Part shown: in pieces, positions 3,535 through 25,911 of the stretch
How positions within the stretch are numbered: the first letter of the stretch is position 1
Layout: each line of letters begins with the position of its first letter
Virus record (IMG/VR): IMGVR_UViG_3300002514_000126
Span: 6,062-32,852 of that record
Length of the DNA stretch: 26,791 nt
Direction: 5' to 3' (one strand)
Source: a virus
Notes under the pieces: generated by a model
Seen by the model: the letters and a program-made list of their open reading frames with translations, nothing else
What the model was told of the DNA's origin: nothing
The model's database searches: none
Translations under genes and position numbers: made by a program

Positions 3535-5187
3535 TTATTTTCTACTTAAGTTTCCCTCTTTCCAAGTTTCATAATTAGGACCTAAGACATATACAAATTG
3601 TCTTCCATTCCTTTTCATTTCAACGATACCTGAATTATTTATGACCGCAAAAAATTCGGAATTATGCCCAGGAGTATAAGTTCTCCCGATGTGGTCATAA
3701 AATTCTTTTCTAGTCTTACCTGGATTATTTTTAACAAAGTCTACGAATAATTGAGTTAACGAACCTTCTTTAGGTGGGTATCTAAATACGAGTGGTGTTC
3801 TCCATCTTTGAGGTCCCCACAACACTTTATCTTCTTGAGTTAATTCTTTAACTTCAGGTCTCGATAAAAGATATCTTAAATTTGGTATTAAAATATTATT
3901 TAAAAAAGTTTTTTCTGGCCAACCCCTCCACTGATTCCCTTCATACTTCTCATTGTCTAGAAAGTTAGCTTTAAACATATCTCGTGGTGGTAGACCTAGT
4001 TTCCCATTCATTAATTCATTATAACCTAAAGTACGTGAAGCTTCAACAATTTTTTCAGGAAGAATTTTAAAATACCAACCCACATCTTCATCCAAGTCGT
4101 TTTCTTCTGTAGGTTTGATAGTTCTTTGATAATCACTTACATTAATTTCATATTCACCATCGACAAATGTATCAATTGAGAAAGATATAGGTGTTTCGCC
4201 CACATGATTTACATACCATTCACTACGATTTACAAACTCTAAACTCCATGTTCCACTCTCCGTATTAAATAGAATATTTTCCCCCTCTAGTTTTTCCGAT
4301 ATCATTTCCGTAAATCTATTTAGGGACATCCACCTGTTAAAATCTAGAGATTCTTGATGGGGAACTAATTCCTGTCTATATAAGTCGTCTATTACCTGTA
4401 TAGTTTGTGCCGGTAACATTGATTTTATCATATGTACAATTTGTCCACCTAACTTAGCATCTTTCTCATCATACCATTCATCATCAGGTACTAATCGGTG
4501 TGACCTGGAAGGGAATTTTTTAAATAAGGCAACTTTAAAGTCTTTCCCTTGTGAGGTTTTCTCTTTTTTTATAATATAATATAAGACACCCTCCTCCGAA
4601 TATTTTTCAAAGTATGTGTCACTATCCTTAGTAGTAGTACACCATTTAGTTCCTCTACCATAATAACAGGAAGCTCTATGACTTTGTGGTCTAATAATTA
4701 ACCAGGTATCGTCTTCGTAAACTCTATCTATTTCCGATTTTGCCTTTTTTCGTTCTTGTTGTTTTGTGGATATATGGTCTATGGTATCCATTACATGTTC
4801 AAGGGTTGATATCTCCTCATAAGACTCTATATCTCTAGGTGATTGTGTTATTTTACTCCCAACACCGTAACCCCACTCCTTCATAAACTCTGGAGTTAAT
4901 CTGTCTACATTTTTATGGAATCTTTGCACTAAGGATGATATGTCACTTGGAGCTGTACCTCTCTCTTCTGGATTAAGATACATCTTAACCATCCACATAA
5001 GATATTTGTTATTACCTGAAGGGTCCGCATTAATAAAATGTTTTAATACACCATCTAAATTTGTCCCCGCATATATACCGGCAGCATTTTGAAATTCAGC
5101 TATGGGCCATGACCCCACATAATCTTCAAAGTATCGTTGTGCGTCTTCTACTCTTCCTTCTAATAGTATATTTCTATAATAATTCAT
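3535..5187 (-). CDS. Cys/WCT-domain protein with winged-helix-like C-terminus
   Basis: 550 residues. After a short leader (LLEG at residues 8-11) comes a helical part with KYLMWMVKMY and a DI-x-SYEEISTLEHV segment. At about residues 160-210 lies the conserved domain: VYEDDTWLIIRP, then SCYYGRGTKWCTT, then GVLYYIIKK. The two cysteines are spaced C-x8-C. The same order of segments is found in 5191-6939 and in the partial gene at the window start, so these are paralogues. The last 90 residues (TQLFVDFVKNNPGKTRKEFYDHI to RQFVYVLGPN) look like a winged helix. The start is 3 nt after the upstream paralogue's stop, so the two are cotranscribed. The function is unknown. The domain layout suggests a different effector or partner module on each paralogue. 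Confidence 0.8.
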   Translation of the reverse strand: MNYYRNILLEGRVEDAQRYFEDYVGSWPIAEFQNAAGIYAGTNLDGVLKHFINADPSGNNKYLMWMVKMYLNPEERGTAPSDISSLVQRFHKNVDRLTPEFMKEWGYGVGSKITQSPRDIESYEEISTLEHVMDTIDHISTKQQERKKAKSEIDRVYEDDTWLIIRPQSHRASCYYGRGTKWCTTTKDSDTYFEKYSEEGVLYYIIKKEKTSQGKDFKVALFKKFPSRSHRLVPDDEWYDEKDAKLGGQIVHMIKSMLPAQTIQVIDDLYRQELVPHQESLDFNRWMSLNRFTEMISEKLEGENILFNTESGTWSLEFVNRSEWYVNHVGETPISFSIDTFVDGEYEINVSDYQRTIKPTEENDLDEDVGWYFKILPEKIVEASRTLGYNELMNGKLGLPPRDMFKANFLDNEKYEGNQWRGWPEKTFLNNILIPNLRYLLSRPEVKELTQEDKVLWGPQRWRTPLVFRYPPKEGSLTQLFVDFVKNNPGKTRKEFYDHIGRTYTPGHNSEFFAVINNSGIVEMKRNGRQFVYVLGPNYETWKEGNLSRK

Positions 5188-5190
5188 CTT

Positions 5191-6939
5191 TTAATTTGTT
5201 CTATATATGTAAAACCACTCTCCATCATAACTAACCTCTCGTTCTTCACCATCATAACCTGAGAGTCCATTACCTCTACCATCTGTCATTATAACATCTT
5301 CCACAAAGTCATCTATATCTATAAAATTCTCGATATCTAAGTCATACATTTCAATATATTCCTGTGGGTCATATTCTATATCTTTTAGTTTCGTTTCCAG
5401 CGCGTCATCTATTGCTTCTTCTGACCATTCATAATTGTCTTCATCATCGATAATGTCCTGTTTTTGTTCTTCTAACGCTTCTATTTGGTCTTGAGTATAT
5501 TCTTCTTCTGCCTCATTTTCCGCGTCTTCTAATTCATAATGTAAATCTCCTATTTCTTCATCTATTGCTTCCAATTGGTCTTCCCATTCTTTGGTGAGAT
5601 TTTTATCGTCTTCTTCATCTAAATAACTTTCTGGGGATTCCTCTATGTCTTGTCTAATCCAGTCCGATACGTATTCCGCTACCTGCTCCCCATCTATATG
5701 GTTACTGTAAAAACTTTCATTAAAACCTTCCAACCCTATATCATCAATCAAATTTCTTACTTGTTCTTCTGCAGCCTCATCTGCTTCATCATCATCCCCA
5801 ACTGCATACTCCCTTCCATCATATTCAAATATAGGCATCTCCCCATAATGGGTAGAACCGTCATACTTAATATCATATACGGTGGGTTTATTGGCCATTG
5901 CCTCGATTAATTCCTCTTCAAGATTATTTAAATCTTGACCATAATCTTGGGCTCTTTCCCCTTCAGGATTCTCAATAACTTCTGGGTCATTTTCCATATC
6001 TTGTTGCATGTCCCGTATTTCATTTTCTACTGTCTCTATCGCATCATCCCCATCTTCCCACTCTCCTTCATCAATTAAATATTCCATTAATGCATTAGCA
6101 CGTATACCTACATAGTCACCATTTTCTGGATTCCATTCCTCATTTTCTTTTCTTATTTCTGCTGCTGCACTTAACCTCATTTCTCTCTCTATTCTTTGTT
6201 GTGCCCATTCTTGGTCTCGTGCTTGTCTTTCTAATTCTCTTTGTTTTTCTTCCGCACTAATCCTTGCAATATCTTCTTTATAGGTGAATTCAAAATACTT
6301 TTCTATAGTTTCCATTAATGGATGGTCAAAAAGATATTGGATTTTATTTCTATCATGGATTAGACTGTCAGGGGCGTCATAAAAATCTGTTGCACCCTTA
6401 TAAGTTTTATTAAGAGCTATCTTATATAAAGGATTAGAAGTGGGTAATGTTTTATCTAAAATGTAAAAAAGTTTTCCACTTTGGTTATAATTTGTGAAAT
6501 GTCCAGCATTATCTTTGGATGCTGTACACCATTTAGTTCCTGCACCATAATAACAGGATGCGTCATGGGATTCGGGTAGTACTACTTTAAAACGGTCATC
6601 TTCATATATTACTTTAGATTGTTCATGGGTATCTATTATTCGTTGTCTTTCTTTTAAATTATCTAAAATTTGTTTTAACGCAGTAAGAGATTTATAAGAA
6701 TATAAATCTTTTCTAGGGAGTTTGTTTTTTTTTCTATCGAATCTTTCCACAACATCGAGAATCATATCTACAGTCATATCATTCTGTCTAGCAGAGTCTT
6801 GATATACCTTTGCCATCCATTCTAAATATTTGTGGTTAGAAGATATGGACTCACTCCCTTTTACCATCCTTGCCCACATATCGACAGGTATATTATATTT
6901 TTCTTTTACTTTAGAAACTCTACTCTCTATTAATATCAT
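5191..6939 (-). CDS. Cys/WCT-domain protein with long acidic coiled-coil tail
   Basis: 582 residues. The leader contains LIES at residues 3-6, followed by KYLEWMAKVYQ, a helical SYKSLTALKQIL segment, VIYEDDRFKVVLP and the motif SCYYGAGTKWCTASK ending in GKLFYILDK (about residues 110-165). The middle is a charged Arg/Glu helix rich in QAR and REM repeats. The last 300 residues are extremely acidic, with many Glu/Asp runs, aromatic residues and predicted coiled coil. Such acidic tails can mimic nucleic acid or bind basic proteins, but no specific target can be named. It is the first gene of a - strand operon with 3535-5187 and 2864-3532. A TATTTAT motif lies 15 nt before its start. Confidence 0.8.
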   Translation of the reverse strand: MILIESRVSKVKEKYNIPVDMWARMVKGSESISSNHKYLEWMAKVYQDSARQNDMTVDMILDVVERFDRKKNKLPRKDLYSYKSLTALKQILDNLKERQRIIDTHEQSKVIYEDDRFKVVLPESHDASCYYGAGTKWCTASKDNAGHFTNYNQSGKLFYILDKTLPTSNPLYKIALNKTYKGATDFYDAPDSLIHDRNKIQYLFDHPLMETIEKYFEFTYKEDIARISAEEKQRELERQARDQEWAQQRIEREMRLSAAAEIRKENEEWNPENGDYVGIRANALMEYLIDEGEWEDGDDAIETVENEIRDMQQDMENDPEVIENPEGERAQDYGQDLNNLEEELIEAMANKPTVYDIKYDGSTHYGEMPIFEYDGREYAVGDDDEADEAAEEQVRNLIDDIGLEGFNESFYSNHIDGEQVAEYVSDWIRQDIEESPESYLDEEDDKNLTKEWEDQLEAIDEEIGDLHYELEDAENEAEEEYTQDQIEALEEQKQDIIDDEDNYEWSEEAIDDALETKLKDIEYDPQEYIEMYDLDIENFIDIDDFVEDVIMTDGRGNGLSGYDGEEREVSYDGEWFYIYRTN

Positions 6940-9184: not shown

Positions 9185-10021
9185 ATGAATATCAAAAAGA
9201 TTTATTTAGAGAGTGAGGAATACTATCACGATATAGTACCTAAAAAAACAATTTACTTACACCATACTGCGGGTAGTCATAGACCTGACTGGACAGTATC
9301 CAGTTGGGAGAGAGATAAAACTAAAAGTGGGGGGGTGAGACATATTGCCACTGCCTATGTTATAGGAGGTAAATCTACCAGAGATGGAAATACAAAATGG
9401 GATGGGACAGTCATAGAATGTCATCCCCCAGAGAAATGGGCACATCATTTAGGAATTAAAGCAAGAAATAATAGAAAATTAAATAAAGAAAGTGTTGGAA
9501 TAGAAATATGTAATTACGGACCTATTAAAGTGAAGAATGGAGAATATTTTAACTATGTTAATAGTAGGGTACCTAAAGAGGACGTAATTGACTTAGGGTT
9601 CGTCTTTAAAGGTTATAGACACTACCACGCATATACGGATGCACAAATAGAATCCACTCGACAATTAATTCACTACTTAAGTGAGAAGTTTGATATAAAT
9701 GTAGCGAAAGGTATGAAAAGAATCATCAATAAAGCTTTAAAAATACCCGAAGATTTGGATTTGTTAGGTAAACAAAAATGGTTAAATATACAAGGTTATT
9801 TGGGAGCTAACGGAAAAAGACTAGCAGAAGATGGTCTAGATGGAAGAAATACCCAATTCGCTATTAAATCTTACAGTCATGATAAGAAAGGAGATGCGTT
9901 TGCATTGAATGACCAAGCGTTGATAGGAGCAGAAGGAGTGTGGACCCATACAAATGTAAGGAAAGATAAATATGATTTATCACCCCAACCCAAACTAATT
10001 GAAATGTTAAGTGAATTATAA
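9185..10021 (+). CDS. N-acetylmuramoyl-L-alanine amidase (amidase_2/PGRP type)
   Basis: 278 residues. TIYLHHTAGS is the classic first zinc-histidine motif of amidase_2 enzymes. AYVIGGKSTRDGNTKW-DGTVIECHPPEKWAHHLG follows the family order, and SVGIEICNYG gives the central strand. WTHTNVRKDKYDLSPQP is the terminal zinc-ligand and substrate-binding segment (H...K-x-D-x-x-P). The enzyme cuts the bond between MurNAc and L-Ala of peptidoglycan. It is longer than minimal phage amidases because of an insertion around residues 180-230. No signal peptide is present; the N-terminus MNIKKIYLESEE resembles the short leaders of neighbours. It may be a holin-dependent endolysin or a virion-associated wall enzyme. 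Confidence 0.92.
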   Translation: MNIKKIYLESEEYYHDIVPKKTIYLHHTAGSHRPDWTVSSWERDKTKSGGVRHIATAYVIGGKSTRDGNTKWDGTVIECHPPEKWAHHLGIKARNNRKLNKESVGIEICNYGPIKVKNGEYFNYVNSRVPKEDVIDLGFVFKGYRHYHAYTDAQIESTRQLIHYLSEKFDINVAKGMKRIINKALKIPEDLDLLGKQKWLNIQGYLGANGKRLAEDGLDGRNTQFAIKSYSHDKKGDAFALNDQALIGAEGVWTHTNVRKDKYDLSPQPKLIEMLSEL

Positions 10022-10772: not shown

Positions 10773-10961
10773 ATGCTCATAGTAAAAGTACAAAAAAATA
10801 ACATAGAAAAAGCCATCAAACAGATGAGGAGAAAAGTTGTCCAAACACAACTATTTAAAGAATGTAGAAAAAGAAAACAGTTCACAAAACCTTCTATTCT
10901 TAGAAGAGAGGAAATCAAGAAAGCAGCTTATGTCCAGCAGAAATTTGGAGATGAAGATTAA
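10773..10961 (+). CDS. rpsU: Phage-encoded 30S ribosomal protein bS21
   Basis: 62 residues, near the usual bS21 length. The sequence fits the family along its whole length: MLIVKVQKNNIEKAIKQMRRKV, a Lys/Arg-rich middle with CRKRKQFTKPSILRREE, and a basic helical end. The start is clear at the ATG; no Shine-Dalgarno site precedes it. In the cell bS21 binds the 30S platform near the 3' end of 16S rRNA. In Bacteroidota it helps hide the anti-Shine-Dalgarno tail (known from ribosome structures). Phage copies of bS21 are known and are thought to replace the host protein and bias translation to phage mRNAs. It meets the 1025-aa gene tail-to-tail with interlocked stops (TTAA). TATAAATA at 10697 and AATATTTAT at 10742 lie upstream. 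Confidence 0.85.
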   Translation: MLIVKVQKNNIEKAIKQMRRKVVQTQLFKECRKRKQFTKPSILRREEIKKAAYVQQKFGDED

Positions 10962-13900
10962 TAAACATCAAACAAAGTAGGACTTTTAACCTTCGTTATA
11001 AAACCTTCCAACGGTTCCGTAAATCTTTCCCCACCATATTTAACACTATCACCGTCTTTATATGACTCAATATCAAATGTTATTGTCTCATCCTTAGCAT
11101 CTATTTTACGTACCCCAATAGTTCTTTTATTTATATCATCTAGAAGTTGTTCTTTTTTAAATGAATGAACACCCCATCCCTGTTCCTCAAATTTCTCATC
11201 GTGTAAAAATAATCTTACTTTGTCGATAAACTCCTTTCTACCTTCATAGTCTACATCCTCTATTTTTTCAAATAACCTATCGAACACATACTCCACCTCT
11301 TCTTCTGTGCCGTCTGCCCAATCATATGAATCATAAAAAATATCACTTAATTCATTGGGTATAGAATTAATAGGTTGAGTGAATAAATTATCTAATGTCT
11401 CACCTTTCTTTAAATAAGTTTTAACCAAATATAACAAAGGTTCCCACCCGATGTGTATTCGTACATCACCACCAACATGGTCGTAATCCAGAAAAATTTC
11501 ATTTTTAAAATATTCGGTCATCTGGTTAGCTCGTTCCTTAGCGATACCTTTACCTACCTCATATAATAGGTCACCGTTATAATAGTCCCATTCGTTGGGA
11601 AAATACAACTCAAAGAAGTCAGCTATTTCCCCCTCCTCAAAGGAGTGACACTCTTTAGTTAGAGGCATATTAGTACCCTTTAGTGTATTCATGAGGGGTA
11701 TAAGTTTTTTCATTTGCTTATCATTAAACCAACAAGATATATAATTTAATTCATCCTCATCTAATTCATCATAGGGTTCGTCATAATAGAGGTCATGTGC
11801 CAAATCATAATAATATTCACCATCTCCTACTTCTAAAATATTAGTTAACCAGTCTTCTTTGGATAGATACACATTAATCCCATCAGAAGTGAGTTCTATT
11901 TCGTTTTCCCCTCCAGAAGTATAATATGAGTCTTCATACCTATCGAATTCACCATAATACTCTTCTAAATCTTCAGGGTCTGCTTTATTTATATTAATGT
12001 TGTATATAAGTTCACCTAATTTACTATGTTCTTTACCCTCTAACTTACTGTCTTCAGTAAAACCCATATTAAATTTGATGAGTTGAGGTAAAGAATAATT
12101 TAATTTAAAAAATTTTTGTAGTTCCATTTCTTCACTTAAAATTTCATAAAGGTCCTCCACAGACCCATTTGTGTTCACGCCGATTCTCCTGCTAGTAGGT
12201 TCCATTAGTAAAGGTATTTTCCCTTCGTCTATTATAAGAAATTGTGAAGCATGGTGAGAAGGTTTAAGGACTTTATTTTTAAACTCAACAATATAAGGAG
12301 TACCCCTATATACCTTCTCTGTGAGCCAGTGATTGTGGCTATGACAATATTCCGTATTGGGTATATTACAGATATCACTAGACTTAAGAGGAACATATAC
12401 TCGATAGTCTTCATTATCTAATACCACTTTCTTAGGTATATCTTTTGTAGGTTCTTTTTGTTCTTGTAACCTTCTTAATTCCTGTTCTTCTTCCCAACCA
12501 CCTCTTCTATACCCAGGATTCATAATCCAATCATCTTTTCCAGATACTATAAAAGTGTCTGAGTAGAGCGCTCGGTCCTCTAAATTTTTTTGGGTTACTT
12601 TATATACTGTAGTATCATCATCAGGACCCTCCCAATTTTGGGGTTGCCGATGAATAACAGCAGTAACAATATAAGGTAGATATAATTGGGTAGATTCAGG
12701 TCGTGTTGTACGCCAGGGTATAGCGGGAAATGTGTTTTTATCGATAGAAATGAGTAAAACCTCATCTCCTATATCTAGAGGAATATTTTTTTTTGGACCT
12801 TTAGCTTCATGTAATGAATCTCTACCGTATCTTTCAGTAATATCTTTTAAAAGAATGGTATATAATTCTTCACCCTCTTCATCTGTTAACCCCTGTCTCT
12901 TTTTAGTATTTTCTACAGAGTTACGAATTACCTCTTCAAAGGACCTATTTTGTTTTCTTCGTCTGGCATTAAGGCCAGAGGTCTGTGCGTCAATTTCATG
13001 GTCTTGGGTGTAGTAGGGCAAACCGTCTAAATCTTTATTTACATTTGTGGGGGAAGTCCCCATAACCTCCTGTTCCCCATGTCTTATCTCATGCCTAATA
13101 TATTCAGTTAAATAGTTTTCTATGTGGTCGTAACTTTCAGGTTCCATTAAAGGATTAATAATTAAACCAATCTCGATAGTGTCCTCACCCTCAATATAAA
13201 AAGCTTCTAAATGAAACTCATCTTTAATATCTTCATCTCTACTGATAGTCAATTCTACTGTAAACATAAAATTATCTATGGGGTATATAGTTTCATCTGG
13301 ACGTAAGTCTTCGGGGAGATAATAAGTGTTTACATTAGGGTCATTTACAGTTTGATGGATAAGTTTCATTACATCATCTACCATTATCAAAGTTTCTTTA
13401 TAGAAATTTCTTTCTTCATTTAAATTTTGGTCAGTAGTGTCTAGAGATTTTAATTTACCTCCTAATTTTTTTATAATATGGTTAAATATATTTTTAAAAC
13501 CTATTAAACCCACACCAAACAATACACTCTTAAGGTATCCAGTTGGTGAACCAGGATTTATGAGGCCTTTATCCATTAAAAATAATAACCCATCTAGGAT
13601 GGGGAATGCTAAGAAAGTAAAAGATACAATATCCACTAAAGAATTAGTTGTATACCCTATCGACTCACCTATTTTTAAGGCTATATTTTCTACCGATTTA
13701 AGAAAATCTACTACCATCGATAAACCTTTATTTAATCCCTTTTCCTGGATGATAGTGAGAAGTTTTTGAATTTTCTCCTTATGTTTGTTTGTTAGAATCC
13801 ATATTGCCGTAATATAAAGAAGAATGATGTCTTGTTCCCCCAGTTCAGGCATAGAACCAGACACCAATTCCTTAACTGCTGGTAACAGTGCAGTAATGCC

Positions 13901-14035
13901 TGTACCAAACGTGAAGGTTCCGTCTATTATCCCACCTAAATCAACTAAGGTTTTCTTCACCAGAGAGTCATTTTTCTCTATTCTTTCTAAAATAAGACCT
14001 TTTTGATGAAGGCTATCAATTAAACTAATATTCAT
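10958..14035 (-). CDS. Large membrane/zincin protein with divergent Cys domain, 1025 aa
   Basis: A multi-domain protein. Leader: residues 1-18 with LILE. Residues about 30-190 hold several hydrophobic helices (ITALLPAVKELV, IILLYITAIWILTN, VSFTFLAFPILDGLLFLM, YLKSVLFGVGLIGF), suggesting membrane insertion. At about 308-345 HEIRHGEQ gives an HExxH zinc-protease motif, followed by a YTQDHEIDAQTSG segment that can supply the third ligand, as in phage-type zincins. Around 540-610, DYRVYVP...DICNIPNTEYCH...PYIVEFKNK follows the order of the Cys/WCT domain with WCT replaced by YCH and spacing C-x7-C. The last 350 residues are acidic and Tyr-rich. It may be a packaged or ejected protein acting at the host membrane; this is inference. 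Confidence 0.75.
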   Translation of the reverse strand: MNISLIDSLHQKGLILERIEKNDSLVKKTLVDLGGIIDGTFTFGTGITALLPAVKELVSGSMPELGEQDIILLYITAIWILTNKHKEKIQKLLTIIQEKGLNKGLSMVVDFLKSVENIALKIGESIGYTTNSLVDIVSFTFLAFPILDGLLFLMDKGLINPGSPTGYLKSVLFGVGLIGFKNIFNHIIKKLGGKLKSLDTTDQNLNEERNFYKETLIMVDDVMKLIHQTVNDPNVNTYYLPEDLRPDETIYPIDNFMFTVELTISRDEDIKDEFHLEAFYIEGEDTIEIGLIINPLMEPESYDHIENYLTEYIRHEIRHGEQEVMGTSPTNVNKDLDGLPYYTQDHEIDAQTSGLNARRRKQNRSFEEVIRNSVENTKKRQGLTDEEGEELYTILLKDITERYGRDSLHEAKGPKKNIPLDIGDEVLLISIDKNTFPAIPWRTTRPESTQLYLPYIVTAVIHRQPQNWEGPDDDTTVYKVTQKNLEDRALYSDTFIVSGKDDWIMNPGYRRGGWEEEQELRRLQEQKEPTKDIPKKVVLDNEDYRVYVPLKSSDICNIPNTEYCHSHNHWLTEKVYRGTPYIVEFKNKVLKPSHHASQFLIIDEGKIPLLMEPTSRRIGVNTNGSVEDLYEILSEEMELQKFFKLNYSLPQLIKFNMGFTEDSKLEGKEHSKLGELIYNININKADPEDLEEYYGEFDRYEDSYYTSGGENEIELTSDGINVYLSKEDWLTNILEVGDGEYYYDLAHDLYYDEPYDELDEDELNYISCWFNDKQMKKLIPLMNTLKGTNMPLTKECHSFEEGEIADFFELYFPNEWDYYNGDLLYEVGKGIAKERANQMTEYFKNEIFLDYDHVGGDVRIHIGWEPLLYLVKTYLKKGETLDNLFTQPINSIPNELSDIFYDSYDWADGTEEEVEYVFDRLFEKIEDVDYEGRKEFIDKVRLFLHDEKFEEQGWGVHSFKKEQLLDDINKRTIGVRKIDAKDETITFDIESYKDGDSVKYGGERFTEPLEGFITKVKSPTLFDVY

Positions 14036-14068: not shown

Positions 14069-14077
14069 ACTATTTAT
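14069..14077 (+). promoter_or_regulatory. TATTTAT motif before the DUF192 gene
   Basis: ACTATTTAT, 4 nt (GTGT) before the ATG at 14082. This spacing supports 14082 over the in-frame ATG at 14076, which lies inside the motif. Confidence 0.5.
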
Positions 14078-14081
14078 GTGT

Positions 14082-14423
14082 ATGGAATTAAAGGTTGGAA
14101 AATATAATTTACCCCTAGAGGTTATGGATACCCCAAATAAAAGAAGGAGGGGGATGATGTGGAGAGAAAAGTTAGATGGGGGAATGTTATTTTTATTCCC
14201 CAATACCCAAGAACTATCTTTTTGGATGAAAAATTGTAAAATTCCTCTCGACATTATTATGGTAAGTGATAATGTGGTTACAACGGTACATAAAAATTGC
14301 CTACCATGTACTACCCCAGAATGTAAACATTATAAGGGTATTGGGAATAAAGTATTAGAATTAAATGGGGGAATGGCACATAAGTTAGGGATAAAACCAA
14401 CCACCATATTAGATATTAGGTAA
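14082..14423 (+). CDS. DUF192 family protein
   Basis: 113 residues from the ATG at 14082. RRRGMMWREKLDGGMLFLFP and LSFWMKNCKIPLDIIMV match the DUF192 signature (GMM-R-L, GMLF-F, FWMKN-IPLDI). The usual C-terminal ELNGGMAHKLGIK strand is also present. DUF192 proteins are small beta-rich proteins of unknown biochemical role; most bacterial members are exported, while this one has no signal peptide. An insertion with C-x4-C-x3-C (CLPCTTPEC) is unusual and might bind metal. The gene lies between two - strand genes and overlaps the end of the DHH gene by 15 nt. Confidence 0.88.
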   Translation: MELKVGKYNLPLEVMDTPNKRRRGMMWREKLDGGMLFLFPNTQELSFWMKNCKIPLDIIMVSDNVVTTVHKNCLPCTTPECKHYKGIGNKVLELNGGMAHKLGIKPTTILDIR

Positions 14424-16352
14424 GTCTGAAGTACTTTTCTTCATAGCTTTACTGAGGTTAGATATTAAATCATGAGCTTCACCCACTCTTTTCATCGCAC
14501 TCACCACTTCAGTTTTCCCGACGAAAGGAATTAAACTTATTACATTTTCTACATTATCTAAGATTTTAGGTAATTCATCTGCCATTCCTTGTTGTAATAA
14601 TTGTTCTCCAGCGAAAGCACCCACATCCGTTAGAGCGGTAGGGTCAGGGATTAACTGAACTAAACGAGAACTTAAATCTATTAAATCCTCACTTACACCA
14701 TACATTTCATCTTCTATATCACGAATTAATTCACTCGTAGGATTTCTTTTAAAGTCATTCATTGCTTTTTCTAAAGAGCGTGACCCACTTTTTATTTCAA
14801 ATACATTCTTTGCAATTATACCTAACATGACGGGCATCCCTATCACCCCTGTAGCACCGATGCCGGCAGCAGTTAAGTCACCTAAAGTGTCCCCAATCAT
14901 ACTTATTTCTACTAATTTAGTTTTTAAGGTAGAATAGATTTCATTTACTTTATTTTGTTGTATTTTTTCTTTTAGGGTATTCACCATTTCTTTTTGTACC
15001 CACTTAACAAATTCCACATATCTTGTAGGTTTACTACCTGTTTTTCTCTTCCAGGACCCGTCTGGATTTCTAGTTGCTCGACTAAAAAAATTAAGACCAC
15101 TAATATTGGTTATACATTTATGTCCTCCACTATTAGCTTGGATTACATCCCAAGCAGAGACTGTGATAGTATCTAAAATTTGTTTTTGTTGTTCACTTAA
15201 CTCTCCCCACGGGCTATCAATTATATTAACTACCTCACTATAATAGGGAGAGTCTGGGGTAGGCATATGGTTAAGTTTATCTTTATAAAGAGCAAATAAA
15301 TCTGAAGTCTTAAACCCAATACTGTCTTGAGTTGCTTTAGTTTCACCTATTCTCTTGATGACAGATACAGGTATTTGGTGTTGTTTAAGTTGAGGTTCAA
15401 TCTTAGATAATACTTCTTGTGCGATATCCCCTAAATTAATTCCTTTAAGAGCTCTATCTTCTTTAAATGGATTACATGACGCTTGTACCAAACCCATGGG
15501 CCATGCAATTACTAAAAAATCTGCATCGGGATGAATTTTAAATGGAGTGTAACGGTCATAAGAACCTGGTTTGAATAAGCTTCCCCCACCATATTGTACA
15601 ATAATATTACCATCTAAAGTTAGATTGTTACTTTCTTCTTGTGATTTAATATATTTTTGTTGATTTATAGCCATTCTTTCAGGACTAGCAAAATTCTCAT
15701 CACCTGCTATTCTATTAATATTGTGAAAAATATTCATTAAAGAAGGTGAGGAATTCTTCACCAACTCCTCTAAAAAACCTTGTTTATTTTTATAAGCTAA
15801 TAGGAGTTTGTTGGTTAATAATGCTAACATCCATTTATTACTAGGAACGGTCCCGTTTGCATCAAATTTTTTAATATAGTTCATTACATCATCTGGTGTG
15901 AGACCATGTTTCGCATAATCCGCACTATCTACAGTGGATATTCTCATTACATCATCAGTAGTGAAAATATCATGGGGACTTACGACTTGAGAAAGAGTCT
16001 CAACATTAGAACGGGCTCCTCTAAATTGTGTTGAAGTATCCCCCTCAACCCCTGATTGACTATCATGATGGTCAGTATGGATAGTAAACATTGGTTTACC
16101 ATGGGCAAAATCAACCAATACCTGCATGGTATCTCCTTCAGCTTTTGGTTTCGATACAGAAAATTCTTTATCCCCATATTGGATAACGTGAGTATCTACC
16201 ACATTTATACCATACTTTTCTAAGTATTCTTTCATAGCGATTGCAGATACTACACCATCTAAATCTTGGTGAAAATAAATCTCAGCTTTAGGATATCTTT
16301 TAGCTATTTTATTAATATCCTGTATACCACTTTCTTTGATTATTCTTTTCAT
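14409..16352 (-). CDS. DHH-family phosphoesterase fused to a helical/membrane-prone C-terminal domain
   Basis: 647 residues. The short leader MKRIIKES is followed by YFHQDLDGVVSA (H28, D30, D32), the first DHH metal motif. VLVDFAH gives the next aspartate (D81) and HTDHHDS (D94-H95-H96) is the DHH motif proper. STVDSADY gives a further aspartate, and GGHKCITNISG at about 425 is the DHHA1-like substrate loop. DHH enzymes hydrolyse phosphodiester or pyrophosphate bonds, for example in oligoribonucleotides, cyclic dinucleotides or ssDNA. The last 150 residues are a separate helical domain with a glycine-rich hydrophobic stretch (AAGIGATGVIGMPVMLGII) able to enter a membrane. The fusion suggests delivery to or action at the membrane. 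The substrate is not deducible; degradation of a host nucleotide signal would fit a counter-defence role but is speculation. Confidence 0.85.
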   Translation of the reverse strand: MKRIIKESGIQDINKIAKRYPKAEIYFHQDLDGVVSAIAMKEYLEKYGINVVDTHVIQYGDKEFSVSKPKAEGDTMQVLVDFAHGKPMFTIHTDHHDSQSGVEGDTSTQFRGARSNVETLSQVVSPHDIFTTDDVMRISTVDSADYAKHGLTPDDVMNYIKKFDANGTVPSNKWMLALLTNKLLLAYKNKQGFLEELVKNSSPSLMNIFHNINRIAGDENFASPERMAINQQKYIKSQEESNNLTLDGNIIVQYGGGSLFKPGSYDRYTPFKIHPDADFLVIAWPMGLVQASCNPFKEDRALKGINLGDIAQEVLSKIEPQLKQHQIPVSVIKRIGETKATQDSIGFKTSDLFALYKDKLNHMPTPDSPYYSEVVNIIDSPWGELSEQQKQILDTITVSAWDVIQANSGGHKCITNISGLNFFSRATRNPDGSWKRKTGSKPTRYVEFVKWVQKEMVNTLKEKIQQNKVNEIYSTLKTKLVEISMIGDTLGDLTAAGIGATGVIGMPVMLGIIAKNVFEIKSGSRSLEKAMNDFKRNPTSELIRDIEDEMYGVSEDLIDLSSRLVQLIPDPTALTDVGAFAGEQLLQQGMADELPKILDNVENVISLIPFVGKTEVVSAMKRVGEAHDLISNLSKAMKKSTSDLPNI

Positions 16353-16367: not shown

Positions 16368-16964
16368 TTAGTAGTCACAATTGGAAAATAAACGAGATTC
16401 TTTTATTCTTCTATTGCCTACTCCCAAAGGAAGTTTCCAAGATTTAATTTTTTTAGCTGCTTCATCAAATTTACCATATTTGACATCTTGAATCCATGCA
16501 CTTAATCTAATACCAGGGTTATTTCTACTTCCTTCACAACCCGCATTAAAGGCTAAAGAAACCATTGCATCGTACTGACATTGGTTTAATTTAGCACCAG
16601 GTAAATCATTTGCACTCCAAACCTTTACTATTCTATTAATACAACCTTCAAACCCACGTAAGTCTTCTTTTAAATACTGTATGGCCTCTTCTTGAGTTAT
16701 AACCTTCCCTTCGGTAGCATGTTTACCAGTGTGACCATAACCTATGGTTAATGTACCTTTAGGTGTACCATTTTTATACCTACTACTCTCATATTTTATA
16801 GGTGGGTCATTATAATAGCCGTCATCATAGGTGTATAGTACAGGTTCACCACCCACCCCTTCATCGTCTGTTAAGAAAGTAATAAGTTTTTTCGATGAAG
16901 AATTTGGAGTCTGGTTTATGCCTTCTTCTTCGAGGAGATATGATAATTGATTAATTAATTTCAT
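16368..16964 (-). CDS. GH24 (T4-type) lysozyme/endolysin
   Basis: 198 residues from the ATG at 16964. A GTG six codons upstream (16982) is less likely because it lies before the TATTTAT motif. The leader MKLINQLSYLLEEE precedes the catalytic core: E35 in LTDDEG, D47/D48 in YTYDDG, T73 in LTIGYGHT. The end has the usual GNRRIKESRLF segment. GH24 enzymes cut MurNAc-GlcNAc bonds in peptidoglycan. The stretch between the catalytic Asp and Thr is about 25 residues, against about 5 in T4 lysozyme. No signal or SAR helix is visible, so release would need a holin. A two-TM candidate lies at 18665-18889. Confidence 0.93.
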   Translation of the reverse strand: MKLINQLSYLLEEEGINQTPNSSSKKLITFLTDDEGVGGEPVLYTYDDGYYNDPPIKYESSRYKNGTPKGTLTIGYGHTGKHATEGKVITQEEAIQYLKEDLRGFEGCINRIVKVWSANDLPGAKLNQCQYDAMVSLAFNAGCEGSRNNPGIRLSAWIQDVKYGKFDEAAKKIKSWKLPLGVGNRRIKESRLFSNCDY

Positions 16965-21120: not shown

Positions 21121-22197
21121 ATGAAAGTAAAATTAGAATACATTTGGTTGGACGGTAATGAACCAACCCAGAAATTAAGAAGTAAGACAAAGGTTTGGGA
21201 ATATGACCCTATGAGTAACCCTAAAATGCAGACTAAAAGAATAATGGCCTATAATGGTAGAGTCATTCCTTGTGCAGATGAACTTCCTATCTGGAGTTTT
21301 GATGGTTCCTCCACTAATCAAGCGAGTGGCAATAAGTCGGATTGTATATTAAAACCAGTTCATGTGATAATGGACCCTCAGAGATTAGACGGTTATCTGG
21401 TGATGTGTGAGGTATTAACAGCGGAGAACACCCCTCACCACTCTAATAGGAGACATTCTTTAGTAAACGATGACCAATATTGGTTTGGTTTTGAACAAGA
21501 ATATATTTTAACTAAAAATCTTAAACCTTTAGGGTTCCCTATGGAGGGTTATCCTAAACCACAAGGTGATTATTATTGTGGGATTGGTTCGGAGAATGTA
21601 GTAGGGCGTGATATTGTAGAAGAACATTTACAAGTATGTTTAGAAGCTAATCTTAACATTACTGGCACCAACGCAGAAGTAATGGTAGGGCAATGGGAAT
21701 ACCAGATTTTTGGTGAAGGAGCTAAAAAAGCAAGTGACGAGTTATGGTTATCACGTTTCTTACTTATTAGATTAACTGAAAAATATGATTTGAAAGTAGA
21801 TTTTAATCCTAAACCAGTTGAAGGAGATTGGAACGGTTCAGGTCTTCATGTTAATTTTTCTAGTGATTTAACACGAGAAGTGGGAGGAGAAGAAATGTTT
21901 GTCTCCATTTGTGAAGAATTAGGTAAAAATCACAGAGAACATATAGAAGTGTACGGGGAAGAAAACGATAAGCGATTAACAGGATTACATGAAACTCAAC
22001 ATATAAATAACTTTAGTTATGGGGTGAGTGATAGAGGTGCATCCATACGTATACCTATATCTACGGTGGAAGATGGATGGAAAGGTTATTTAGAAGATAG
22101 GAGACCTGCGAGTAATGCGGACCCTTACCTGTTAACGGGGAGAATTTACAATACTTTACTCACAGCAGAAAATAAATTTAGGACAATAGAAGTGTAA
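21121..22197 (+). CDS. Type II glutamine synthetase (GSII, eukaryote-like)
   Basis: 358 residues, full length for GSII. LEYIWLDG opens the beta-grasp part and WSFDGSSTNQA is the substrate-site loop. Further blocks in order are FGFEQEY (E125, E127, metal ligands), GSENVVGRDIVEEH, NAEVMVGQWEYQ, NGSGLHVNFS, ENDKRLTGLHET (flexible glutamate loop), RGASIRIP and RRPASNADPY. All expected catalytic residues appear intact. The enzyme makes glutamine from glutamate, ammonia and ATP in the cytoplasm. GSII is present in many Flavobacteriia, a likely donor, and is unusual in phages. It is the first gene of an operon with three thiol-redox genes. A role in nitrogen supply for nucleotide synthesis during infection is inference. 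Confidence 0.95.
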   Translation: MKVKLEYIWLDGNEPTQKLRSKTKVWEYDPMSNPKMQTKRIMAYNGRVIPCADELPIWSFDGSSTNQASGNKSDCILKPVHVIMDPQRLDGYLVMCEVLTAENTPHHSNRRHSLVNDDQYWFGFEQEYILTKNLKPLGFPMEGYPKPQGDYYCGIGSENVVGRDIVEEHLQVCLEANLNITGTNAEVMVGQWEYQIFGEGAKKASDELWLSRFLLIRLTEKYDLKVDFNPKPVEGDWNGSGLHVNFSSDLTREVGGEEMFVSICEELGKNHREHIEVYGEENDKRLTGLHETQHINNFSYGVSDRGASIRIPISTVEDGWKGYLEDRRPASNADPYLLTGRIYNTLLTAENKFRTIEV

Positions 22198-22200
22198 AAA

Positions 22201-22479
22201 ATGAAATTAACATTATTTAGTCAATGGGAGTGTAAAACTTGTTTAGTAATGAAAGAAACTTTGGAAAAAGAAGAGATGAAGTATAAAGTTATAGAAGTAC
22301 TAGAACATAAAGAATTGTGGGAAGGAATTAGGAAACAACAACTTCAATTAGACCCTACTGGTATAATGTATACACCTACTGTATTAGTAGAGAGTAAAGG
22401 CATAGGGGTTTATATTTCAGCAGGTCGAGATTTTGATACAGTCGAAGAGGCATTAGATAAAATAAGAGAATATTTATAA
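22201..22479 (+). CDS. Glutaredoxin-like protein (CKTC)
   Basis: 92 residues. The start TLFSQWECKTC places a C-x-x-C pair (C11, C14) at the tip of a thioredoxin fold. MYTPTVLV supplies the cis-proline, and a helical SAGRDFDTVEEALDKI end follows. The redox pair CKTC differs from classic CPYC glutaredoxins and the GHK-binding residues are not clear. It may use another donor. It starts 3 nt after the glutamine synthetase stop and is followed 2 nt later by thioredoxin. Confidence 0.85.
   Translation: MKLTLFSQWECKTCLVMKETLEKEEMKYKVIEVLEHKELWEGIRKQQLQLDPTGIMYTPTVLVESKGIGVYISAGRDFDTVEEALDKIREYL
22469..22477 (+). promoter_or_regulatory. TATTTAT motif before thioredoxin
   Basis: AATATTTAT, 4 nt before the ATG at 22482. 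It coincides with the Tyr-Leu-stop codons of the preceding gene, so it may be chance. Confidence 0.25.
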
Positions 22480-22481
22480 TT

Positions 22482-22793
22482 ATGGAAGTAAACGATAGTA
22501 CTTTAGAAAAAACCTTAAAAGATAATAAAGTAGTTTTATTAGATTTTTGGGCAGAATGGTGTGGTCCCTGTAGAATGCTAAGTCCTACTATTCAAGCATT
22601 AGAAACGGAATTTAAGGATAAAGTGGTAATAGGAAAATTAAATATTACCGAGAACCCTACTTCCTCTACTAAATACGGTGTAAGGAGTATACCTACCGTC
22701 ATTATTTATAAAAATGGAAAAGAGATGGAGAGATTAGTGGGGATAAGAGAGAAATCTTTTTATGAAGATAAAATTAATTATTATTTAAATTAA
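22482..22793 (+). CDS. trxA: Thioredoxin
   Basis: 103 residues, the standard thioredoxin length. VVLLDFWAEWCGPCRML contains the classic active site W26-C27-G28-P29-C30, and VRSIPTVIIYKNGKE gives the cis-proline strand. ADxx-type IGKLNITENP and the final helix are normal. Thioredoxin reduces disulfides in target proteins such as ribonucleotide reductase. In phages it can also serve DNA metabolism enzymes. It lies between two glutaredoxin-like genes in the GS operon, with gaps of 1-2 nt. Confidence 0.96.
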   Translation: MEVNDSTLEKTLKDNKVVLLDFWAEWCGPCRMLSPTIQALETEFKDKVVIGKLNITENPTSSTKYGVRSIPTVIIYKNGKEMERLVGIREKSFYEDKINYYLN

Positions 22794-22794
22794 A

Positions 22795-23067
22795 ATGAAA
22801 ACATTATTAATATATTCAGAGGATGGTTGTCCTTGGTGCACCAAAATGAAAGGGTTGCTGGATGAAAGTAACATTAAGTTTTTAGTAAGAGATATTGAAA
22901 GATATGATAAAGAATGGGAACGGGTAAGTGAAGAAGCTAAAACTGAATACATACCTACTGTGTGCATCGTAGACCATGATGAAAAAACTAAAACTTATTT
23001 AACACCTGATGTAGATTTCGAGGAAATTGAAGAAGGTGTAGAAAAAATTAAAATATTGATGACATAA
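22795..23067 (+). CDS. Glutaredoxin-like protein (CPWC)
   Basis: 90 residues. LLIYSEDGCPWCTKMKGLL has the C12-P-W-C15 active site, close to classic glutaredoxins, and EYIPTVCIVD gives the cis-proline. A C-terminal FEEIEEGVEKI helix completes the fold. It probably exchanges thiols with glutathione, bacillithiol-like thiols or thioredoxin reductase; which of these is unknown. The stop overlaps the start of the next gene (TAATG), so the five genes from 21121 to 23663 form one translationally linked unit. Confidence 0.9.
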   Translation: MKTLLIYSEDGCPWCTKMKGLLDESNIKFLVRDIERYDKEWERVSEEAKTEYIPTVCIVDHDEKTKTYLTPDVDFEEIEEGVEKIKILMT

Positions 23068-24474: not shown

Positions 24475-25911
24475 ATGAATTTAAGAGACGCACTTCAGAC
24501 ACAAGACACCGTAACCGAGAATGGAATGACAACTAATTCTTCTTCTTTAAATCACTGTGTAGACCTATTCTTTCAGATAGGTGCGATGAGAGGTATGGAC
24601 AAGAAAAGACTTGTTTCTAAATTCTCCAAGGCGTATAACGAAGACGCTCTAGTAGCCATGAGAATTTTATTCTGGGCACGAGACGTAAGAGGGGGTGCGG
24701 GTGAAAGACAAATTTTTAGAGATTTACTAGGTTGGTTATGTGAAAACCACAGTGACGTACTTACCAAGAATATTCATTTAATTAGTGAATATGGTAGATG
24801 GGATGACATTTTGACACTCATGAATAGTAAAAACTGTTGGTTAGAACCGTTAGCTTTAATCAAAACTGCGTTAGAAAACAAAGATGGGTTATGTGCAAAG
24901 TGGATGCCTAGAAAAGGAGTTAAAGCAAATACTATTAGAAAGTATATGAAAATGACTCCTAAAGAGTACCGAAAAACTTTAGTAGGATTAACTAATGTGG
25001 TGGAAACCAGTATGTGTTCTAAGGAATGGGAGAATATTAACTATTCTAAATTACCATCCTTGGCATCATCTAGGTACCAACAAGCATTTCACAAAAATGA
25101 TGGTGAAAGATATCGTGAGTACGTAGAGTCTTTGAAGAAAGGTACTACCAAAATTAACGCGGGAGCGGTATACCCTTACGACATCACTAAATCTGTTAAG
25201 TTCGGTGACGCGGAAGTTGCGAGTGAACAGTGGAAAGTTTTACCTAATTACATGGAAGGTTCTGAAGAAAGAATTCTCCCCGTAGTAGATGTTTCAGGTT
25301 CAATGAGTTGTCCCGCGGGAAATAATCCTAACCTTACTTGTATGGATGTTGCAGTCTCATTAGGTTTATACATTTCGGAAAGAAACGTAGGTCCTTTCCA
25401 AGACACGTTCGTAACGTTCTCGGCAAGACCAAAACTTCAAGTACTTAATGGTAACCTAAGGGAGAGATTGAGTCAACTATACCGAGCGGAATGGGAGATG
25501 AATACGAACATACAAGCAACCTTCAAACTTATTCTAGACCAAGCGGTTAAACATCAAGTCTCTCAGGATGATATGCCTACCAAGGTTCTTATCCTATCAG
25601 ATATGGAATTTGACCAAGCGACAGGTAAGTCATGGAGTTATAATGAGGTACCTCAGTGGAATCCTACCGCTCAACAAATGATTAAAGGAATGTATCAAGA
25701 GGCTGGATATGAAATGCCAGATATCGTTTACTGGAACTTAAATGCCAGAAATGATAATTTCCCAACTTCAGTTAATGAAATGGGGACAGCATTAGTATCT
25801 GGTTTCTCTCCTTCAATCATGAAAAGTATTTTAACATGTGAGGAATTTACTCCTTACAAAATGATGATGGAGACTATCGACTCACCTCGATACGAACCAA
25901 TCAGGGTCTGA
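24475..25911 (+). CDS. Ro60/TROVE-DUF2828-like RNA-binding protein with vWA domain
   Basis: 478 residues. The N-terminal half is an alpha-solenoid with the diagnostic MTTNSSSLNHCVDLFFQIGAM, then FWARDVRGGAGERQIFRDLLGWL and SEYGRWDDIL. These segments match DUF2828 and resemble TROVE/Ro60 proteins. From about residue 268 a vWA domain follows with MIDAS residues DVSGSM (272-277), NTNIQATF (about 344) and LSDMEFD (about 377), and ends in YWNLNARN and ALVSGFSPSIMKSIL. Ro60 rings bind misfolded RNA and partner Y RNAs, and guide exonucleases. Most phages lack such a gene. The protein may survey or degrade RNA. It is followed directly by a structured non-coding region, as Ro genes are by Y RNA genes. 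Assignment to DUF2828 versus TROVE is not certain. Confidence 0.85.
   Translation: MNLRDALQTQDTVTENGMTTNSSSLNHCVDLFFQIGAMRGMDKKRLVSKFSKAYNEDALVAMRILFWARDVRGGAGERQIFRDLLGWLCENHSDVLTKNIHLISEYGRWDDILTLMNSKNCWLEPLALIKTALENKDGLCAKWMPRKGVKANTIRKYMKMTPKEYRKTLVGLTNVVETSMCSKEWENINYSKLPSLASSRYQQAFHKNDGERYREYVESLKKGTTKINAGAVYPYDITKSVKFGDAEVASEQWKVLPNYMEGSEERILPVVDVSGSMSCPAGNNPNLTCMDVAVSLGLYISERNVGPFQDTFVTFSARPKLQVLNGNLRERLSQLYRAEWEMNTNIQATFKLILDQAVKHQVSQDDMPTKVLILSDMEFDQATGKSWSYNEVPQWNPTAQQMIKGMYQEAGYEMPDIVYWNLNARNDNFPTSVNEMGTALVSGFSPSIMKSILTCEEFTPYKMMMETIDSPRYEPIRV

Follow-up and report, generated by a model that had tools for sequence, protein, structure and literature searches.

The window, by which we mean the whole stretch of DNA analysed (26.8 kb out of a 32,852-bp viral record), contains a 647-aa open reading frame at 14409-16352, described in the original prediction as a DHH phosphoesterase with a leader peptide and an added helical C-terminal domain. 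A check of the window's reading frames confirmed the frame as real and placed it on the minus strand. The features at and around the locus are as follows, a slash marking a predicted cut.

14409-16352, minus strand: precursor gene encoding leader, DHH enzyme and helical unit (647 aa)
16332-16352, minus strand: leader MKRIIKE, predicted cut after E7 ([LI]xE/SG); motif in 78/78 frames
14907-16331, minus strand: predicted mature DHH phosphoesterase, residues 8-482
16257-16271, minus strand: core of DHH motif I (H28-x-D30-x-D32)
16065-16073, minus strand: DHH motif III (D94 H95 H96)
15120-15131, minus strand: SGGH signature of the DHHA1-like half (S408-H411)
14904-14915, minus strand: fusion junction LVE/I (residues 480-483), predicted second prohead-protease site; [LI]xE in 10/10 fusions of the window type
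14412-14906, minus strand: helical, hydrophobic unit of 165 aa; stand-alone in related record G003 (L029:9333-9860)
16368-16964, minus strand: phage lysozyme with leader MKLINQLSYLLE/, directly upstream of the DHH gene on the same strand
10958-14035, minus strand: second predicted polyprotein (1025 aa) with LILE/ leader, hydrophobic unit, LNE/ before a zincin (HEIRH) and LQE/ before a TKWCT-like unit
3535-5187, minus strand: TKWCT-motif protein, leader MNYYRNILLE/
5191-6939, minus strand: TKWCT-motif protein, leader MILIE/; a relative is fused to DHH in locus L022
8064-9170, plus strand: 368-aa protein, leader MKLIHTIHTLVE/
9185-10021, plus strand: amidase (PF01510), N-terminus MNIKKIYLE/S

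The amidase was considered as a further leader-bearing protein and rejected, its N-terminus having Tyr where its neighbours have Leu or Ile and thereby misfitting [LI]xE. A recurrent [TR][KR]WCT-like domain without a Pfam name was found at 1-972, 3535-5187, 5191-6939 and 10958-14035, the motif itself being altered in the 1025-aa frame, and two of the window's TKWCT-type frames matched phrog_17056/28193 (unknown function). Convergent with the DHH gene, a DUF192 gene (14076-14423, plus strand) overlaps its last 15 bases; convergent frames of like size follow the DHH genes of L015, L018, L024, L109 and L087, and none follows that of L023. PADLOC gave no match for the DHH gene. A Bacteroidota-type promoter pattern occurred 4 times against 1.35 expected, a count equalled in 4/100 shuffles, and hence showed no clear enrichment.

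The DHH enzyme and its relatives

Viral contigs were rich in relatives of the enzyme, with at least 571 of 600 pattern matches confirmed, of which the best 80 were retained. By tblastn against 50,697 phage records four relatives were recovered, all from uncultured phages, and BFVD held two unnamed viral relatives with 54 and 40% identity. On cellular genome contigs 0 of 42 pattern matches were confirmed as DHH relatives, using strict patterns that remote cellular kin could escape. The 78 distinct frames compared below include the window's own and a few cut copies of one another. Given that loci were picked partly via the HQDLDG stretch and that the frame filter required DHH, counts of HxDxDG and DHH are circular, while the conservation of the other motifs is not.

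In agreement with the original prediction that all DHH motifs are present, HxDxDG, VDFAHGKP and TDHHD each occurred in 78/78 frames (two of these counts being circular), as did DSA ([VI]DSA in 76, MDSA in two) and SGGH (SGGHK in 77, SGGHR in L126). Of the 78 frames, 43 were selected for an alignment (L126 was left out because the script sought GGHK), and in these residues H28, D30, D32, D81, D94-H95-H96, D142 and S408-G409-G410-H411-K412 were invariant. The Pfam DHH profile matched 43/43 aligned members, the window protein falling under the curated cut-off (20.6 vs 28.1 bits). No Pfam DHHA1 match was obtained for the window protein or the aligned members, and the claim that all DHHA1 motifs are present was therefore overstated; what supports a DHHA1-like half is SGGH and the fold.

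The model of residues 1-482 reached a pLDDT of 73.8 and a pTM of 0.73. Searched with Foldseek, as had been proposed, it matched best the small DHH phosphodiesterases PggH (E 6e-5) and DhhP (1.9e-4). VIA-align gave Z scores of 13.5 for PggH, 12.6 for PAP phosphatase, 10.8 for PF0399, about 9.8 for RecJ and 9.6 for NrN, aligning 252 residues with PggH and 214-219 with NrN; the fold match ran to residue 464-468, at an identity of only 8-17%. The presumed metal ligands, whose absence from a model was named in the original prediction as a refutation, are conserved in sequence, and the active-site loop (82-123) has a pLDDT below 50, too uncertain for geometry.

The TIGR00644 recJ profile matched 31/43 members weakly (best 1.9e-4) and, in the window protein, covered residues 10-81 only, at 18.1 bits against a cut-off of 396.9. 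As RecJ was also not the best structural match, a RecJ exonuclease identity was rejected, and the clear match to a replication exonuclease that the original prediction had warned of did not emerge. Sequence searches of the PDB with enzyme profiles returned no DHH chain (none at E ≤ 0.1; in another run, two unrelated chains at E 0.47 and 0.84). The enzyme is thus a DHH phosphoesterase that fits the small phosphodiesterases somewhat better than RecJ. It has the fold and DHH motifs in common with PggH, DhhP, NrN, NrnA and GdpP, but differs from these small DHH phosphodiesterases in its greater size (core of about 460 residues), in its low identity to them (about 8-16%) and in having no detectable Pfam DHHA1 domain. 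The shared fold names no substrate.

Leader peptide and junctions between fused units

The leader reported in the original prediction is real and conserved, [LI]xE/[SGT]G preceding the conserved enzyme start in 78/78 distinct frames. It has 38 spellings, with 7 residues in 55/78 and 20 residues in 14/78 as assigned by script, and E7 and G9 are invariant in the 43 aligned members. Relatives with 28-43% identity from 635-735-kb phage records carry xNE/E in place of [LI]xE/[SGT]G (FINE/E, FINE/E and ALNE/E), their N-termini reading MISKYNQFINE/E, MLRKYGQFINE/E and, from a TTG start, MIKEFHNFALNE/E. The letters of [LI]xE match the T4 prohead-protease consensus, and by sequence the leader resembles a T4 prohead-protease/capsid-targeting site.

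Leaders of the long form were also found on a lysozyme, two M23-type proteins and other non-DHH proteins. Against a long-form template, 17/836 N-termini scored at least 36, compared with 0.2 for shuffles and 0.3 for protein interiors; the template is itself one of the 17, of which 8 are DHH (template among them) and 9 non-DHH, some alike. [LI]xE is a weak motif, with 23 sites in the 1025-aa neighbour and several inside the DHH enzyme, so that its weight lies solely in position and conservation. Plain [LI]xE was mildly raised at N-termini (45/149 against 34.2 ± 4.6 in interiors; 41/127 against 28.8 ± 4.5), which is a poor test, and stricter and positional tests, chosen after the data were seen, were therefore used. 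Strict [LIVM][LI]xE at residues 5-25 occurred in 22/149 frames of G003, against 6.2 ± 2.2 in interiors (largest of 500 draws 14) and 9.8 ± 3.0 in shuffles (largest 21). For G001 the count was 15/127, against 6.7 ± 2.3 (largest 13) and 8.4 ± 2.7, respectively, the excess over shuffles being modest since the largest of 500 shuffles (18) exceeds the observed 15.

The enzyme is fused to a further unit in 35 of the 78 frames and ends the protein in 36; 7 were left out (two repeated tails, four ended by the contig end, and L126). Fusion partners were the helical unit, a TKWCT protein, SET, M23, PG-binding with GH19, and others with PG-binding. Within a fixed 34-residue segment at the join, [LIV]xE was present in 31/35 fused tails, against 18.7 ± 2.7 in shuffles (largest 28). 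L075, L086, L090 and L094, the four tails without it there, carry a site that crosses the segment edge, and extension by six preceding residues (40 around the join) raised the count to 35/35, the shuffle control applying only to the fixed segment.

Joins were mapped by laying stand-alone leaders onto fused relatives, dropping alignments of fewer than 60 columns, offsets below 150, sequences with no leader and starts more than 14 residues past the leader. Among the 36 mapped joins, which comprise about five types including near-copies and are not independent, 25 lay within one residue of [LIV]xE (random 2.4 ± 1.5, largest of 2000 draws 8) and 35 no farther than seven residues from it (random 10.4 ± 2.7, largest 19). 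The single join off by more than seven residues is a second mapping in L022 and falls inside the enzyme. Several M23 fusions have no exact unit borders because their N-termini fail to align.

The C-terminal unit of the window protein is predicted to be helical (pLDDT 77), with one hydrophobic segment at residues 496-514 (Kyte-Doolittle 1.85), and matched nothing convincing by profile (best E 0.024) or Foldseek (none at E ≤ 0.001). In G003 its relative is a stand-alone 175-aa protein, MKLLKHLSNIISE/YAISDTLGDL..., whose gene adjoins a lysozyme gene. The window's DHH gene occupies the spot of this stand-alone gene beside the lysozyme; G003's own DHH gene lies about 9 kb from its helical gene and is fused to a TKWCT protein. 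In 10/10 listed fusions of the window type, [LI]xE lies one residue (offset -1) from the mapped stand-alone leader cut, with the junction spelled LVE/IS, LIE/IS, LLE/TS or LIE/SS. Consistent with the original prediction, the C-terminal stretch is thus helical by prediction and has a hydrophobic segment, but these comparisons favour viewing it as a protein unit of its own, 165 residues long, rather than as an extra domain of the enzyme. Because an apparent cleavage site parts the two, the helical unit probably does not anchor the enzyme in the membrane. Within the predicted mature DHH enzyme, VNE at residue 471 is a possible additional site.

The 1025-aa gene presents a second case, in which the LILE/ leader is followed by LNE/ before the HEIRH zincin and then by LQE/ before the TKWCT-like unit, the latter six residues off the mapped point; the G003 relative of the zincin begins MTTQSYLINE/. 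L098 is a three-unit chain of DHH, M23 with PG-binding, and PG-binding with GH19, carrying the linker KEKINESKGLNE at both joins.

Several observations were made alongside. HExxH was present in 14/14 listed zincin-type frames, which had been picked by that motif. SET domains (PF00856) are fused behind the phage DHH enzyme in L110 and L023. A huge-phage DHH relative (L154:2977-5253) has its own C-terminal extension, with LNE/A, located by eye, near the start of its last part.

Head maturation and possible roles of the products

A protease matching PF03420 (E 3.6e-24; L037:13471-14181) is encoded in G003, which carries the DHH relative L022, and was the sole one among nine records; none was found in the window's own 32.9-kb record (G000). 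Across ten related records, a protease was present in three, and the same three carry a gp23-type capsid gene above cut-off; no protease was found in the other seven, which may be incomplete. Capsid matches in G001 and G002 were weak and below cut-off, with the protease absent, a pattern that would be expected if head genes are missing from the records. Three related records encode a major capsid protein with HLINE/A at residue 60 (3/3), presumably where a T4-like propeptide would end. T4 internal proteins are described as carrying N-terminal propeptides of 10-19 residues as core-targeting signals; gp21 takes these propeptides off (PMC9026906), cleaving after Glu (PMC9026906, PMC5694885). Internal proteins with such leaders are reported to be injected (PMC9026906, PMC12373910), and Alt to be cut at both ends (PMC5694885).

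On this evidence the gene probably encodes a prohead-processed effector polyprotein of a T4-type phage, giving rise to two virion-internal proteins. The short N-terminal peptide ending in [LI]xE would direct the chain to the prohead core, where during head maturation a gp21-type protease would cut the precursor after E7 and E482 to yield two products, a DHH-family phosphodiesterase (residues 8-482) and, separate from it, a helical, membrane-prone protein of 165 residues. These would be kept in the head and pass into the host together with the DNA. At the onset of infection the enzyme would most likely hydrolyse short oligonucleotides or small nucleotides, a defence signal possibly among them, while the helical protein may act at the host cell membrane. 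Cleavage, packaging, injection and catalysis are steps that we infer from sequence; the substrate, the anti-defence role and the helical protein's site of action are guesses. The injection put forward in the original prediction is supported, by inference, by the conserved T4-type [LI]xE leader and by similar leaders on unrelated proteins. Among the points against the polyprotein reading are the leaders of 5-7 residues, short beside the 10-19 given for T4 (PMC9026906), and the wall-cleaving partners, which one would not expect on an enzyme acting as a cytoplasmic effector.

Early destruction of a signal by the enzyme is a reasonable guess because precedents exist: injected T4 Ip1-3 are reported to act as inhibitors of distinct GmrSD defence systems (PMC12373910), a role in countering nucleotide signals has been suggested for DHH phosphodiesterases of jumbo phages (PMC7824862), and NrN, a DHH enzyme, is described as degrading SAM-AMP in a type III CRISPR system (PMC10600005).

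While such destruction of a signal is plausible, nucleotide recycling and DNA entry are also possible roles. The packaged enzyme might aid DNA entry or wall penetration, a reading that shares its packaging part with the polyprotein account and would suit both the repeated fusion to M23, PG-binding and GH19 units and the lysozyme gene directly upstream in the window and in L018, L023 being similar judging by the N-terminus. We think this improbable, as SET, TKWCT and helical partners also exist, and we know of no DHH enzyme that acts on the cell wall. The structural scores for PAP phosphatase (Z 12.6) and RecJ (about 9.8), together with the weak recJ profile matches in 31/43 members (best 1.9e-4), would fit an intracellular recycling or replication nuclease of the nanoRNase, PAP phosphatase or RecJ type, unconnected with the head. 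Such an enzyme is a very improbable explanation, since it leaves the family-wide [LI]xE leader and the leader-bearing neighbour genes unexplained, and the RecJ match is limited to residues 10-81 (18.1 vs 396.9 bits).

It is also unlikely, in our estimate, that the chain stays uncut as a membrane-anchored multidomain 'polyvalent' effector, its leader being a packaging tag or a chance conserved N-terminus. The fusion is kept in window-type contigs, the hydrophobic segment at 496-514 could serve such an anchor, the N4 virion RNA polymerase is described as packaged uncut (PMC5512222), and a title cited in PMC7824862 concerns the degradation of a type III CRISPR messenger by a membrane-associated DHH-DHHA1 nuclease. 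However, the helical unit of G003 stands alone with its own leader and the fusion retains [LI]xE at that point, and many relatives have another C-terminal unit or none. The likelihoods given to these alternatives are not mutually exclusive.

The polyprotein reading has parallels in described systems. T4 IPI-III and Alt lose an N-terminal peptide after Glu to a gp21-type protease, are packed in the head and are injected (PMC9026906); the predicted leader site here is similar, and a gp21-type protease and a gp23-type capsid occur in three related records. Unlike in the T4 internal proteins, the leaders here go down to 5-7 residues, and a single chain combines several units with internal sites. 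Polyvalent proteins (Iyer et al. 2017, PMC5512222) are presented as mixtures of enzymatic domains, including zincins and lysozyme domains, that are thought to be injected, and the various C-terminal units found on one DHH core likewise place several effector domains on one phage chain. Processing of polyvalent proteins into separate products, by built-in zincin or assemblin-like domains, was proposed in the same paper (PMC5512222). In contrast, the sites here fit the head protease and lie near unit borders, and 'DHH' is absent from the main text of PMC5512222. The jumbo-phage DHH phosphodiesterases of PMC7824862 share superfamily and proposed role with the window enzyme, and injected polyvalent proteins are stated there to carry signal-targeting enzymes; the passages on these enzymes name no leader, head-protease cleavage or polyprotein, and 'prohead protease' is absent from the main text. 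Searches of the open-licence literature gave no account of a prohead protease separating effectors that are made as one chain, and the word 'polyprotein' is absent from papers retrieved on that subject.

More tentatively, and less likely than not, a widespread lineage of T4-type and huge phages may string injected effectors together via leader-like linkers, pack them as one chain and have the head protease separate them at [LI]xE. These effectors would comprise a nucleotide phosphodiesterase, zincin, SET methyltransferase, wall hydrolases and membrane-active helices, with DHH often in first position, where it would clear a nucleotide defence signal before phage genes are expressed. If the polyprotein reading is right, head maturation would also serve to process a mixed cargo of effectors, and the leader would provide a sequence rule for listing likely injected proteins in uncultured huge phages. 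The DHH family would likewise supply concrete candidates for an activity on nucleotide defence signals when infection has only just begun.

Farther along the window, on the plus strand, lie genes for a PcfJ-like protein (PF14284; 19178-21073), with weak PADLOC matches to Cas12k/Cas12j (15 bits), and for glutamine synthetase (21121-23067), the latter followed by three small frames judged by eye to be thioredoxin/glutaredoxin-like. A DUF2828/DUF7788 protein is encoded at 24475-25911 on the same strand.
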